Shown piece by piece: positions 42,955-46,898 of a stretch of 64,000 nucleotides of DNA. Every line of letters starts with the position of its first letter. The stretch's first letter is position 1. A program made the position numbers and the translations under genes. The stretch is taken from contig NZ_JAUSVO010000003.1 of assembly GCF_030814715.1 (NCBI RefSeq), positions 1 through 64,000 of the forward strand, in the 5' to 3' direction. Source of the stretch: Kaistia dalseonensis. GTDB taxonomy: Bacteria > Pseudomonadota > Alphaproteobacteria > Rhizobiales > Kaistiaceae. The notes below the pieces were generated by a model. That model made no database searches. It was not told the DNA's origin and was given only the letters and a program-made list of their open reading frames with translations.

Positions 42955-44649
42955 ATGGCTTCGAGTGTTGAGAACCGGCGCGACCAGATGTTTCCGACAC
43001 TCGAGGCGGCCGAGATCGCGCGGCTGACGCGATTTGGCACGCCGGTGACCTATCCCGACGGCGCGCACATGATCGCGGCTGGCGCGGTGGCGCGTGGCAT
43101 GTTCGTCATCCTGGCGGGCCATGTCGAGGTGTCGCGGCGCGATGCGGCCGACACCGAGCAACTGGTCGCAAATCAGGGGCCTGGTAGCTTCGTTGCCGAG
43201 CTCGGCCAATTGTCCGAGCGTCCCGCCCTCGTCGACGCCTATGCCAGGGGCGAGGTCGAGGCGTTGGTGATCCCCTCCGACAAGCTGCGCGCCTTGATGA
43301 TCGCCGAGGCGGAACTCGGCGAGCGGATCATGCGCGCGCTGATCCTGCGCCGTGTCGGACTGATCGAGTCCGGAGCGGGCGCTGTCATCGTCGGCGGTTC
43401 CGATCTCGGCGATGTCCTCCGGCTGCAGAATTTCCTGCGGCGCAACGGACAGCCCTATCAGCGGCTCGATCCCGTGGCCGATCCGGCCGCGCAGGCCATC
43501 ATCGAACGCTTCCATCTGAGCCAGGAGGAGATGCCGATCGTCATCTGCCCCGCCGGTCAGATCCTGCGCAACCCTTCGGAGACCGAACTCGCTCGCTGCA
43601 TCGGCCTCGTCGGCCCGATTGATCCCGATCATCTCTATGACGTCGCCGTGATTGGCGCCGGCCCGGCCGGCCTCGCCACCGCCGTGTATGCGGCATCGGA
43701 GGGCCTGTCGGTGCTGGTGCTCGACACGCGCGCCTTTGGCGGCCAGGCAGGCGCCTCGGCGCGGATCGAGAACTATCTCGGCTTTCCCACCGGCATCACC
43801 GGCATGGCGCTGATGGCGCGCGCCTATAATCAGGCGCAGAAATTCGGTGCCGATCTCGCCATCCCCGATGAAGTCACCTGCCTGGAAGATGCCCCGGTCA
43901 ACGGCGAAGCGCGCTTCCGCCTGACGCTCGGGCCAGACGAGCACGCGAATGCGCGCACCGTGGTGGTCGCCAGCGGCGCCCGCTATCGCCGCCCTGATAT
44001 TCCGAACATCGAGAGCTTCGAGCTCTCGAGCATCCATTACTGGGCCTCGCCGCTCGAGCGGAAGCTCTGCAGCGAACAGGAGGTCGTGCTCGTCGGCGGC
44101 GGCAATTCGGCCGGACAAGCCACGGTGTTTCTCGCCGGCCAGGCCAAAAAGGTCTGGTTGCTGATCCGCGGGCCGAGCCTGGAAGCCAGCATGTCGCGCT
44201 ATCTGATCGACCGGATCGCGTCGCTGCCCAATGTCGAACTCGTCACGGAGAGCGAGATCACGGCGCTGGACGGCGAGGCCGGCATCCTCGAAGCCGTGAG
44301 CTGGACCAACCGGAGCATCGGCGTGGTGACCACGCGGCCGATCCGCCATGTGTTTCTCTTCATCGGCGCCGATCCGAACACCGCCTGGCTCGCCGATTGC
44401 CGCGTGGCGCTCGACAAGAAGGGCTTCGTGCTGACCGGAGCCGACAATGCCGGCATCGATCGCTTCCCGCTCGAGACCAGCCGGCGGGGCGTGTTCGCCG
44501 TCGGCGACGTGCGCTCCGGATCGGTGAAGCGCGTTGCGGCCGCCGTTGGCGAGGGCGCGCAGGTCGTCGCCGCCATCCATGCCTATCTCGCCGCCCACCC
44601 CGTGGCCCCTGCCCCCGGACAACCCGCGCCTGAAAGGATATCCGCATGA
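42955..44649 (+). CDS. cyclic-nucleotide-binding/glutaredoxin-like/thioredoxin-reductase-like fusion
   Basis: A 564-residue three-part protein. Residues ~15-130 form a cNMP-binding beta-roll (EIARLTRFGTPVTYPDGAHMIAAG, GMFVILAGHVEVS). Residues ~140-215 resemble a glutaredoxin-like fold (LRLQNFLRRNGQPYQRLD, EEMPIVICPAGQILRNPSETELARC) without the CxxC redox pair. Residues ~228-560 are a thioredoxin-reductase-like FAD/NADPH domain: GAGPAG at 234-239, GGGNSAG at 381-387 and DVRSG. The site that carries CATC in TrxR reads HYWASP, so there is no dithiol. It may pass electrons by another route. Its stop overlaps the start of a UBP zinc-finger gene (ATGA). Confidence 0.9.
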   Translation: MASSVENRRDQMFPTLEAAEIARLTRFGTPVTYPDGAHMIAAGAVARGMFVILAGHVEVSRRDAADTEQLVANQGPGSFVAELGQLSERPALVDAYARGEVEALVIPSDKLRALMIAEAELGERIMRALILRRVGLIESGAGAVIVGGSDLGDVLRLQNFLRRNGQPYQRLDPVADPAAQAIIERFHLSQEEMPIVICPAGQILRNPSETELARCIGLVGPIDPDHLYDVAVIGAGPAGLATAVYAASEGLSVLVLDTRAFGGQAGASARIENYLGFPTGITGMALMARAYNQAQKFGADLAIPDEVTCLEDAPVNGEARFRLTLGPDEHANARTVVVASGARYRRPDIPNIESFELSSIHYWASPLERKLCSEQEVVLVGGGNSAGQATVFLAGQAKKVWLLIRGPSLEASMSRYLIDRIASLPNVELVTESEITALDGEAGILEAVSWTNRSIGVVTTRPIRHVFLFIGADPNTAWLADCRVALDKKGFVLTGADNAGIDRFPLETSRRGVFAVGDVRSGSVKRVAAAVGEGAQVVAAIHAYLAAHPVAPAPGQPAPERISA

Positions 44650-44954
44650 GCGATGAATGTTCGCACACGGCCAGCATCCGCGTCGTCAAGCCCAGCGCGC
44701 GCGGTTGCGAGGAATGCCTGAAGACCGGCAGCATGTGGGTGCATCTGCGCCTCTGCCGCAGTTGCGGCCATGTCGGCTGCTGCGACCAATCTCCGAACCG
44801 CCACGCGACGCGCCATTTCCAGGCGACCGGCCACCCGATCATCGAAGGCTACGACCCGCCCGAGGGCTGGGGCTGGTGCTACATCGACGAGGTCTTCCTC
44901 GACCTCGGCGACAACACGACCCCGCAGGACGGCCCGATCCCACGCTACGTGTAG
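44646..44954 (+). CDS. UBP-type zinc-finger protein
   Basis: A 102-residue protein that is a single ZnF-UBP domain, the fold that binds the free C-terminus of ubiquitin in eukaryotes. Cys5, His7, Cys21, Cys24, Cys37, Cys40, Cys45, Cys46, His53, His57 and His63 provide the usual cross-braced ligands, with the signature LRLCRSCGHVGCCDQSPNRHATRHF. Bacteria lack ubiquitin, so the natural ligand must be another free C-terminus or a partner. Coupling by a 4-base overlap to the TrxR-like fusion strongly suggests a shared pathway. Confidence 0.9.
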   Translation: MSDECSHTASIRVVKPSARGCEECLKTGSMWVHLRLCRSCGHVGCCDQSPNRHATRHFQATGHPIIEGYDPPEGWGWCYIDEVFLDLGDNTTPQDGPIPRYV

Positions 44955-45077: not shown

Positions 45078-46898
45078 ATGGATGATGGGCTCGTGACGGT
45101 CTGCACGGCGGATGGCCTTGGCCAGTCGCTGTGCGAAGCATCGATATGGCTGCTGAGCACCAACGGCGTTCTCGGCGCCTGGATACCGTTGCTGATCGGC
45201 TTTGCGACGGTGTTCTTCACCATACTGGTGAACCACAGCACGCGGCTCAACCGCTTCAAGCGCATCCATGGCTTCTCGCAGAACTTCGCACCGCGGCCGT
45301 TTGCCGAGGATACGCGCACCGATGCAGGGTCCGCCAAGGACGACGGCACGACGTCTGACGATGACTGGCTACGCCGCCGCGATATTCGCTATTCATCCTC
45401 GCTGGAGTTCGTCGTCACCAAATATGTGACCGATCTCGACGAGGTGCTGAAGCCGAATGACTTCGATCGGCTGAAGAAGCTCGATCGCGAGGACGATGGC
45501 TCCAGCGAAATCGAATATCTGGTCAACCGCATCCGCTGCTACAGCATGCCCGTCAATCGTCGGACGCTGTTCTACGCCCTGCCCTTCATGGCGGCGATCA
45601 CGGTCGGCTGGTCGCTCGCGCTCGCCCCGACGCCATTTCTCGACCTGTTCGACAAGACGATGGCGACGCCCGGCGCCACGCAGACAGAGCCCTGCCGTTT
45701 CGATCCGACGATCCTGTCGCTGGCCTTTCTCGGCGCCTATGTCTCCGTTCTGACGATGCTCGTGCGCGCTGTCAGCCTGTTCGATCTCGGCCCGACGACC
45801 TTCTTTCGCGCGCTGCTCCACGTCGTCGGCGCCTTCGTCGCCGGCATTATCGTCTGGAACGTGCTGCTGGCCATCTTCGGCAACGACATTTGCGGCGGGC
45901 GCCTGTCGGGCGCGTTCTATCCCTTCATCTTCGCCGTCGGCTTCGTGCCGGATGCCGGCCTGCAATTCGTCCTGTCCTCGATCCTCAGCGCCATGGAAGC
46001 GCCCATCAAGCAGACCAAGACCGAGCAGCCGACCGAAGAGCAAGCCGAGAATCGGCTCGTCTTTCCGGCCGGCCTGCTGAATTTCCTGAAACTGACCGAT
46101 GGCCGGTTTGCCCGCGCCACCAAGTCGATACCGCTCGACGTGATCGATGGCGTCGATTTCTTCACCCGCTTCCGCCTGAGCGAGGCCGGCGTGCAGGAGG
46201 TGCAGAACCTCGCCGTCGCCAACCCGATCCTGCTCTATGTCGAGACGCCCTATGGCATCTACCAGACCATAGACTGGGTCGGGCAGGCGCAGCTCTGCAC
46301 GGTCGTCGGGCCGGAGCGCTTCCTGATGCTGCGGCAGTTCAACATCCGCACGGTCTTCGATCTCGAACGCGCGGTGCTGAGCATCAAGTCGACCACGCAA
46401 CTGCGCAAGATCATCGCCGGCATCCTGCTCATGACCACCAACACGATGCGCGACATCGAGATCCTGAGTGGATCGCCCTTCCCGGACATGAACAATCCGG
46501 CCTCCGGCGCCAAGAAGACCGCCGAGGAATATACGCGCTGGGCGATCCAGCAGGCCTCGACCGCCACCAAATATCGGTTCAAGCTCGCCCGTGACCCGGC
46601 AATCCTGCCGGCGGCCACGGGAGGCCGACCCATAGCGGGCTATTATGTCTGGCCGAACGCACAGCCAGCCGGCACGCGCCACTATGCGGCCTTCGAGATC
46701 CAGAACGACAAGAGGAGCCAGATCTACGACATCTTCGAAATGGATGATGACGATGCGACCATCAAGCATATGGTGCGCGTCATCATGGATGATCTGCATG
46801 TGATGCGCCTGCGCCAGATCTGGGAAAGCATAGGCCGTACGCTCGGCAGCGATGCCGCGACGCTCGACGATTCCGAGGATGCTTTCATGGGCGCGTAG
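45078..46898 (+). CDS. 606-residue membrane protein of unknown function
   Basis: An orphan protein with about five membrane helices (residues ~34-52, 165-188, 212-236, 245-268, 283-306), a polar, acidic segment (~70-160) between the first two, and a ~290-residue C-terminal cytoplasmic part. This contains the segment FFTRFRLSEAGVQEVQNLAVANPILLYVETPYG, then IDWVGQAQLCTVVG, which looks like two helix-hairpin-helix-like units. I recognise no enzyme motif or family. The start lies after GGGGGCG with an A+T-rich region upstream. Neighbours (a UBP protein, a ParA ATPase) do not indicate a role. Confidence 0.8.
   Translation: MDDGLVTVCTADGLGQSLCEASIWLLSTNGVLGAWIPLLIGFATVFFTILVNHSTRLNRFKRIHGFSQNFAPRPFAEDTRTDAGSAKDDGTTSDDDWLRRRDIRYSSSLEFVVTKYVTDLDEVLKPNDFDRLKKLDREDDGSSEIEYLVNRIRCYSMPVNRRTLFYALPFMAAITVGWSLALAPTPFLDLFDKTMATPGATQTEPCRFDPTILSLAFLGAYVSVLTMLVRAVSLFDLGPTTFFRALLHVVGAFVAGIIVWNVLLAIFGNDICGGRLSGAFYPFIFAVGFVPDAGLQFVLSSILSAMEAPIKQTKTEQPTEEQAENRLVFPAGLLNFLKLTDGRFARATKSIPLDVIDGVDFFTRFRLSEAGVQEVQNLAVANPILLYVETPYGIYQTIDWVGQAQLCTVVGPERFLMLRQFNIRTVFDLERAVLSIKSTTQLRKIIAGILLMTTNTMRDIEILSGSPFPDMNNPASGAKKTAEEYTRWAIQQASTATKYRFKLARDPAILPAATGGRPIAGYYVWPNAQPAGTRHYAAFEIQNDKRSQIYDIFEMDDDDATIKHMVRVIMDDLHVMRLRQIWESIGRTLGSDAATLDDSEDAFMGA

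Follow-up and report, generated by a model that had tools for sequence, protein, structure and literature searches.

What a UBP zinc finger might do in a bacterium, where we know of no ubiquitin partner to be expected, is the question raised by two overlapping genes of Kaistia dalseonensis on the stretch of DNA that we analysed (contig NZ_JAUSVO010000003.1, positions 1 to 64,000; hereafter the window, 64,000 nucleotides in all). The first, gene A, encodes a protein of 564 residues in which a cyclic-nucleotide-binding (CNB) domain and a glutaredoxin-fold domain stand in front of a flavin domain resembling thioredoxin reductase (TrxR). The second, gene B, encodes a stand-alone UBP finger of 102 residues, and its start shares an ATGA with the stop of A, as the original prediction, made from the sequence of this locus, had placed both reading frames. 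We found that A and B are very probably linked in function, and we propose, with evenly balanced confidence, that they form a conserved two-protein module in which a signal-gated NAD(P)H:flavin protein and a peptide-binding adaptor would act in redox or proteotoxic stress, a biochemistry that we infer.

We assessed the linkage in 299 genomes of the window's phylum, its own genome included, using a threshold of E ≤ 1e-80 for A. The finger family zf-UBP occurred in 10 genomes and A in 29 (Fisher P = 1e-11 for co-occurrence), and in all 10 zf-UBP genomes, the window's own among them, A lay beside B within about 400 nucleotides. A wider scan of genome contigs returned at least 593 stretches encoding relatives of B, from which the best 80 loci were kept, such that the set leans to the window's own subfamily; 55 of these had a strong match to A within 6 kb of B. 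In the linked loci A preceded B in 40 cases, followed it in 7 and lay on the opposite strand in 8, a 4-nucleotide overlap of the ATGA type was also found in 9 of the 40 loci with A first, and no fusion of A to B was found among the 55. On a quick tree of 97 of the 118 aligned A proteins, built by a fast method that gave long-branch warnings, the arrangement of the linked genes changed at least 6 times, while we estimate that chance would place A within the 12 kb surrounding B in a 5-Mb genome at well under 1 in 100 loci. Linkage that survives rearrangement in this way is a classic sign of joint function, and the functional link foreseen in the original prediction is strongly supported in the Proteobacteria and, with fewer neighbouring pairs, in other phyla. 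Among the 25 loci lacking a full local A, 21 belong to genomes with A elsewhere and one (L090) has a partial local copy, leaving three genomes with none (those of L069, L077 and L088, all metagenome assemblies). Positions at which A proteins from genomes with a UBP gene differ from those without one, led by L193, R89 and F13, may only track subclades and were not used.

Co-occurrence was also apparent in two other phyla, for which the threshold for A was loosened to 1e-60. In the phylum of a Terriglobia genome (L100; Acidobacteriota), 29 of 149 genomes carried zf-UBP (28 over the cut-off), 27 carried A and 20 carried both (P = 2e-12), and in that of a Thermomicrobiales genome (L097; Thermomicrobiota at NCBI, which we take to be placed in Chloroflexota by GTDB) the corresponding numbers were 33, 24 and 15 of 151 (P = 2e-6). 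B without a neighbouring A is common outside the Proteobacteria and also occurs inside them. Adjacency of the pair is not confined to this genome, being seen in 55 of the 80 loci in three arrangements; many UBP genes outside the Proteobacteria lack a nearby A.

Profile and structure comparisons agreed on the make-up of A. The CNB domain scored 54.6 bits against a Pfam cut-off of 27.5 and the flavin domain 113 bits, and an AlphaFold2 model of the whole protein, built from an alignment of the window and 30 related-locus rows, had a predicted local distance difference test score (pLDDT) of 84 and a predicted template modelling score of 0.73. Modelled alone, the middle domain took a glutaredoxin fold (pLDDT 89.9) for which Mrx1 (2LQO) was the best match both by Foldseek and by profile (E = 2.1e-4); the window's own middle stretch had no Pfam match, and PF00462 exceeded its cut-off in the same domain of one relative (L314). 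Where glutaredoxins carry an active-site CxxC or CxxS the window reads LGDV, and in the profile alignment C17 of Mrx1, the last Cys of its CxxC, falls on V154 of the window's protein. The flavin domain has the two-domain fold for flavin adenine dinucleotide (FAD) and NAD(P)H (VIA-align Z = 34 to the TrxR structures 3cty and 5mh4). Its predicted domain arrangement, weak evidence as such, is nearest the flavin-reducing (FR) form of TrxR (root-mean-square deviation 2.6 to 5mh4, compared to 6.0 to 5mjk, the flavin-oxidizing (FO) form). A fell below the cut-offs of two equivalog profiles, scoring 194.8 bits against 343.45 for thioredoxin reductase (TIGR01292) and 143.6 against 502.9 for AhpF (TIGR03140).

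The cysteines of A set it apart from these enzymes. The window's protein has five (198, 215, 309, 372 and 482) and no CxxC anywhere, and in the A alignment (118 unique rows of 160 A matches passed the length filter, the window included) no row had Cys at position 363, 365 or 366, where TrxR has its CATC site. C372 is Cys in 114 of the 118 rows and E368 is Glu in every one; two TrxR sequences aligned with A have no Cys at the position of C372. The residue is kept in 58/59 rows linked to UBP, 19/20 with UBP elsewhere in the genome and 18/18 without UBP, and it is therefore a feature of A as such and not of the pairing. In the A model the lost CxxC is succeeded by a predicted helix (residues 366-372) with C372 at its end. 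This residue is the strongest functional candidate in A. A CxxC occurred anywhere in the protein in 8 of the 118 rows, at single places in three and at a common site in five, the latter being rows of a receiver-type relative of A, described below (L208, L210, L212, L217 and L224), whose shared motif maps to position 333 of the window's A, ahead of the flavin domain's ATG motif. Rescue of A by a CxxC elsewhere was considered and set aside, as the window has none and position 333 is not the TrxR site. Since A is without a CxxC relay, we propose that it would not reduce thioredoxin in the classical way, and we consider it likely that A is a flavoprotein working by some route other than that of TrxR. 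The original description of A as lacking redox cysteines is accordingly right for dithiol motifs but not for every Cys, and its picture of a dead TrxR, correct as to the missing CxxC, has its main caveat in C372.

Two types of input domain were found joined to the core of A. Both pocket residues of the CNB domain, E82 and R89, are present in the window, and among 106 aligned A rows without a receiver-domain motif E82 is kept in 99 and R89 in 71. In the two further phyla, by contrast, the relatives of A, which we denote A', carried a receiver (REC) domain in 9 of 9 proteins scanned (seven from the ten kinase loci described below; L305, L311 and L312 were left out of the scan). On the basis of these sequences, the core of A appears to serve as an output module that is controlled either by phosphorylation or through a CNB domain, and UBP occurs alongside each of these inputs. 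The gating suggested in the original prediction is supported as domain architecture, for a signal-gated flavoprotein.

B is a true member of its family (51.7 bits against a Pfam cut-off of 22.7) and has a relative of solved structure, 2IDA, that aligns with residues 4-102 of its 102 (E = 7.2e-56). Of its Cys and His residues, eleven candidate zinc ligands (C5, H7, C21, C24, C37, C40, C45, H53, H57, H63 and C78) are conserved, none of them in fewer than 118 of 127 bacterial fingers, which is consistent with the original statement that all zinc ligands are present. In the pocket, W77 is kept in 115 of the 127 and Y79 in 102, and C46 in 125. HDAC6 we take to read CGR where B reads CCD, and the match of columns rests on this reading and on an ungapped alignment to the CGR of USP16. 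At the column of HDAC6 R1155, two residues past the leading Cys of CGR or CCD, 125 of the 127 fingers have Asp (D47 in the window), as do 47 of the 49 that were found by Pfam or in plasmid records, a subset not selected on the motif, and the position of Y1156 (48 in B) is mainly D, S or Q. Passages of PMC12000391 show G1154-R1155 in HDAC6 and state that R1155 and Y1156 are required for binding of RLRGG. According to passages of PMC13376213, USP20 and USP33 have a pocket Glu (E55 and E86, respectively), show no measurable binding of the ubiquitin end and bind internal [KR]xxL[NED] motifs instead; E86 falls in the same column by our reading of the 2uzg alignment, in which the gap may be shifted by one residue in either direction. 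Bacterial UBP fingers therefore most likely read an internal segment or a protein surface, as far as their sequences indicate. Separately, zf-UBP relatives were found in the record of a phage (Tunturiibacter phage Tunturi_3, PP885686.1, 63743-64027) and in three viral contigs of IMG/VR (L229-L231).

We also assessed whether a third gene travels with the pair, as the original prediction had asked. Neighbouring open reading frames (ORFs) were chosen as the longest non-overlapping ones, a crude procedure that includes antisense frames, and a Pfam census covered 79 ORFs from the 25 loci that lack a full local A and 106 of the 167 neighbour ORFs of the 55 linked loci. Across the 80 loci the census found no universal third gene and no other family recurring at the rate of A, the most frequent families being MFS_1 (5 of the 79 ORFs) and alpha/beta hydrolase (6 of the 106). 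When neighbours were clustered over 90 loci (the 80 and 10 from plasmids), A was found at 60, an alpha/beta hydrolase, the next most frequent cluster to which an identity could be given, at 18, and a short-chain dehydrogenase and a histidine-kinase-like protein at 11 each. In ten loci, mostly of Bradyrhizobium (L040, L044, L046, L049, L051-L053, L060, L064 and L065), a conserved small protein (about 169 residues, membrane-like by eye) and an alpha/beta hydrolase come after the pair. No constant third gene emerged from this census of the contig loci; two recurrent contexts were found elsewhere, a chaperone operon and a CNB-histidine kinase.

The gene order dnaK-grpE-dnaJ-cbpM-clpB-trx-UBP-A was found on plasmids of Nocardia, Rhodococcus aetherivorans and Streptomyces angustmyceticus; in Nocardia a DUF1931 gene comes next to A at the end of this order, and partial versions of the chaperone-trx-UBP-A order occur in Rhodococcus PD04 and DK17. 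In R. opacus neither UBP nor A is annotated between trx and DUF1931, yet zf-UBP DNA is present there. All actinobacterial evidence comes from plasmid records, since the one contig locus labelled Actinobacteria (L059) belongs to the window's own phylum, its phylum sample yielding four of the same zf-UBP matches. In make-up the operons may resemble the transmissible locus of stress tolerance known from Proteobacteria. FUSC and PsiE lie near one of the plasmid chaperone operons (among L318, L319, L323, L324 and L325). The thioredoxin of the Rhodococcus operon has a WCAPC site and a Trx2-type zinc ribbon just below threshold (25.9 against 27.1 bits), and a Trx2-type thioredoxin with its zinc ribbon over the cut-off stands beside UBP in Rhodomicrobium (L067). 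On rhizobial plasmids, two records have a histidine kinase, two response regulators, UBP and A. Among 30 regions chosen from the two other phyla (29 surrounding A, the other a UBP gene), a CNB-histidine kinase lies directly beside A' in 10, the UBP gene follows such a kinase in L303 and L305, and in L304 UBP, CNB and HATPase form a single ORF of 558 residues beside A'. Where UBP was found fused, its partner was a CNB-histidine kinase, an antiporter or a membrane protein. Of the latter two, one is the C-terminus of an annotated cation:proton antiporter of Deinococcus ficus (L014, 2216-4252) and the other that of a membrane protein resembling it by eye (L178). A DUF5996 gene beside UBP in Arthrobacter and Oscillatoria (L019 and L020) forms a second recurrent partner across phyla.

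In the module that we propose, the input domain of A, CNB here and REC in the relatives from the two other phyla, would gate the flavin core, which may still take hydride from NAD(P)H, with Cys372 as a candidate one-thiol site for redox chemistry or sensing. B would serve as the adaptor of A, its acidic pocket binding a stretch within a peptide chain or a folded protein and not a free carboxylate, and would bring in or hold the client. The module could then couple the redox state of the cell, and signals from nucleotides or phosphorylation, to the handling of damaged protein by DnaK, ClpB and thioredoxin in actinobacteria, and elsewhere, next to histidine kinases, might pass its output to a two-component system. 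A role in protein quality control is tentative and remains somewhat doubtful. A bolder version would have bacterial UBP fingers read damaged or unfolded protein independently of ubiquitin and, together with A, act as a redox-controlled switch, passing clients on to the DnaK/ClpB disaggregase or signalling them to a histidine kinase, in functional parallel with the HDAC6 zinc finger of the aggresome pathway; this is a speculation that we consider improbable.

Several observations weigh against the module. Only 5 of the 20 genomes with both genes in the Terriglobia phylum have them near each other (adjacent in G458, G349, G467 and G396, separated by a kinase in G455), as do 2 of the 15 in the Thermomicrobiales phylum (G653 and G643), many assemblies of the two phyla consisting of small contigs, and 9 of 29 and 18 of 33 UBP genomes, respectively, have no A at 1e-60. 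The Fisher tests are uncorrected for the relatedness of genomes. UBP has other homes, at the tail of an antiporter, beside FUSC or DUF5996, or in examined stretches without A; in one Streptomyces chaperone operon A directly follows trx with no room for UBP, and Agrobacterium pusense has UBP-A without a histidine kinase alongside. R89 of the CNB pocket is absent in 35 of the 106 rows and from the Rhodococcus A, and a docking motif of the USP20/33 type, tried as a link between the two proteins, shows no conservation in A, reaching no more than 6 of the 59 linked rows at any single position. Enzyme activity, ligand binding and a complex of A with B are all putative.

Two other accounts of A take up parts of the same evidence. 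A may still be a thiol reductase, an unusual TrxR and not a dead one, in which Cys372 would relay electrons singly from flavin to a thioredoxin of the TrxC type or to C46 of B; the conservation of C372, E368 and C46 speaks for such a relay, as do the trx-UBP-A operons of Rhodococcus, Nocardia and Streptomyces and the Trx2-type thioredoxin beside UBP in Rhodomicrobium. In the model, however, C372 would sit at the far end of the helix whose start bears the CATC in TrxR, and L067 is the only one of the 80 contig loci with a Trx2-type thioredoxin in the stretches examined, such that we regard this account as unlikely. We judge it about equally unlikely that A is a non-catalytic sensor of NAD(P)H or redox state with output to a two-component system, B being merely a structural subunit or a kinase-docking part. 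Loss of CxxC from both redox domains, the REC or CNB inputs, the neighbouring CNB-histidine kinases and the UBP-CNB-HATPase fusion all point that way, but the 80 contig loci gave zero matches to the CNB-histidine kinase, some having other histidine kinases or response regulators nearby.

The remaining accounts concern B and the linkage itself. The original prediction had B recognising a protein by its free C-terminus, as eukaryotic UBP fingers do with the diglycine end of ubiquitin, and the true zf-UBP profile and the retained W77 and Y79 speak for such a pocket. The residues at the positions of R1155 and Y1156, measured against what PMC12000391 reports for HDAC6, speak against it, and because the former is Asp in nearly every finger, that claim is not supported and we consider this mode of binding very unlikely. 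That the two genes merely hitch-hike on stress islands or plasmids without joint action might be supposed from their many plasmid copies (87 records with B and 104 with A), but linkage outlasting 6 or more changes in gene order and strand, together with the presence of A elsewhere in the genome in 21 of the 25 unlinked cases, makes this highly improbable.

Several known systems come close to A or to B. Low-molecular-weight TrxR (TrxB) shares the FAD and NAD(P)H domains and their fold, whereas A lacks the CxxC, has Cys372 and carries CNB and glutaredoxin-fold domains in front. AhpF (1hyu) was the top whole-chain Foldseek match and likewise has a Trx-fold part ahead of a TrxR-like part, with a CxxC in the N-terminal Trx-fold part; A differs in that it has a single glutaredoxin-like domain and a CNB input domain and is without CxxC in both parts. 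The TrxR-like ferredoxin/flavodoxin NADP reductases, of which FNR1 and FNR2 of Bacillus cereus resemble the core of A in fold (Z = 29.1 to 8c16 and 27.4 to 6gar), work without CxxC, and A adds to them an input domain, a glutaredoxin-fold domain and a UBP partner. Both protein types are already named in public annotation. A homologue of A beside UBP appears at NCBI, in Rhodococcus and Streptomyces, as "cyclic nucleotide-binding domain-containing thioredoxin-disulfide reductase", a name that implies a disulfide reductase activity unsupported given the missing CxxC and that omits the UBP partner, and 2IDA, a stand-alone bacterial UBP protein of the same family as B, is named only "Hypothetical protein". 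The fingers of USP20 and USP33 share the acidic pocket residue and, according to PMC13376213, bind internal motifs, but lie within deubiquitinases, whereas bacterial fingers have CCD. No account of the pair or of the function of bacterial UBP fingers was found among the PMC matches listed, judged from titles and the starts of abstracts, most subscription journals lying outside this search. Within the literature searched, the folds are known, and the combination of A with B and the contexts that suggest its function are new.

Table 1 Features of the gene pair in the Kaistia dalseonensis window
Feature	Position	Strand	Basis
Gene A, CNB, glutaredoxin-like and TrxR-like flavoprotein, 564 residues	42955..44649	+	ORF, Pfam, AlphaFold2 model
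CNB domain of A, residues 31-115	43045..43299	+	PF00027; pocket residues E82 and R89 present
Glutaredoxin-fold middle domain of A without CxxC, residues 139-224	43369..43626	+	AlphaFold2, Foldseek, profile match
TrxR-like FAD/NAD(P)H domain of A, residues 228-534	43636..44556	+	PF07992, VIA-align
YWASP, lost redox site of A (YCAxC in TrxR), residues 362-366	44038..44052	+	Alignment to TrxR
Cys372 of A, family-specific conserved single Cys, motif E368-x3-C372	44068..44070	+	118-row alignment
ATGA, shared by the stop of A and the start of B	44646..44649	+	ORFs
Gene B, stand-alone zf-UBP protein, 102 residues	44646..44954	+	PF02148; relative 2IDA
C45-C46-D47 of B, D47 at the position of HDAC6 R1155	44778..44786	+	Finger alignment

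The domains named in the original prediction, a CNB domain, a glutaredoxin-like part without CxxC and a flavin domain with its CATC site replaced, were all recovered in place (Table 1). In the window the pair stands alone, with SlyX and GyrI-like genes upstream and, downstream, a 606-residue protein and then a ParA/MipZ-like ATPase, the other strand carrying minE, a MinD/ParA-type ATPase and minC. The 606-residue ORF directly after the pair (45078-46898) is membrane-like by eye and had no Pfam match.

UBP fingers are spread over several bacterial phyla and are represented by one solved structure for which no function is given. The main proteobacterial kind now gains a constant partner in A, and the pocket of B predicts which ligands the finger ought to accept or refuse. 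Attention is also drawn to a family that carries the annotation thioredoxin-disulfide reductase but is without the residues that this name implies, and in which a single conserved Cys stands out. The two operon contexts, with disaggregase chaperones and with histidine kinases, make a role for the bacterial UBP finger directly testable.

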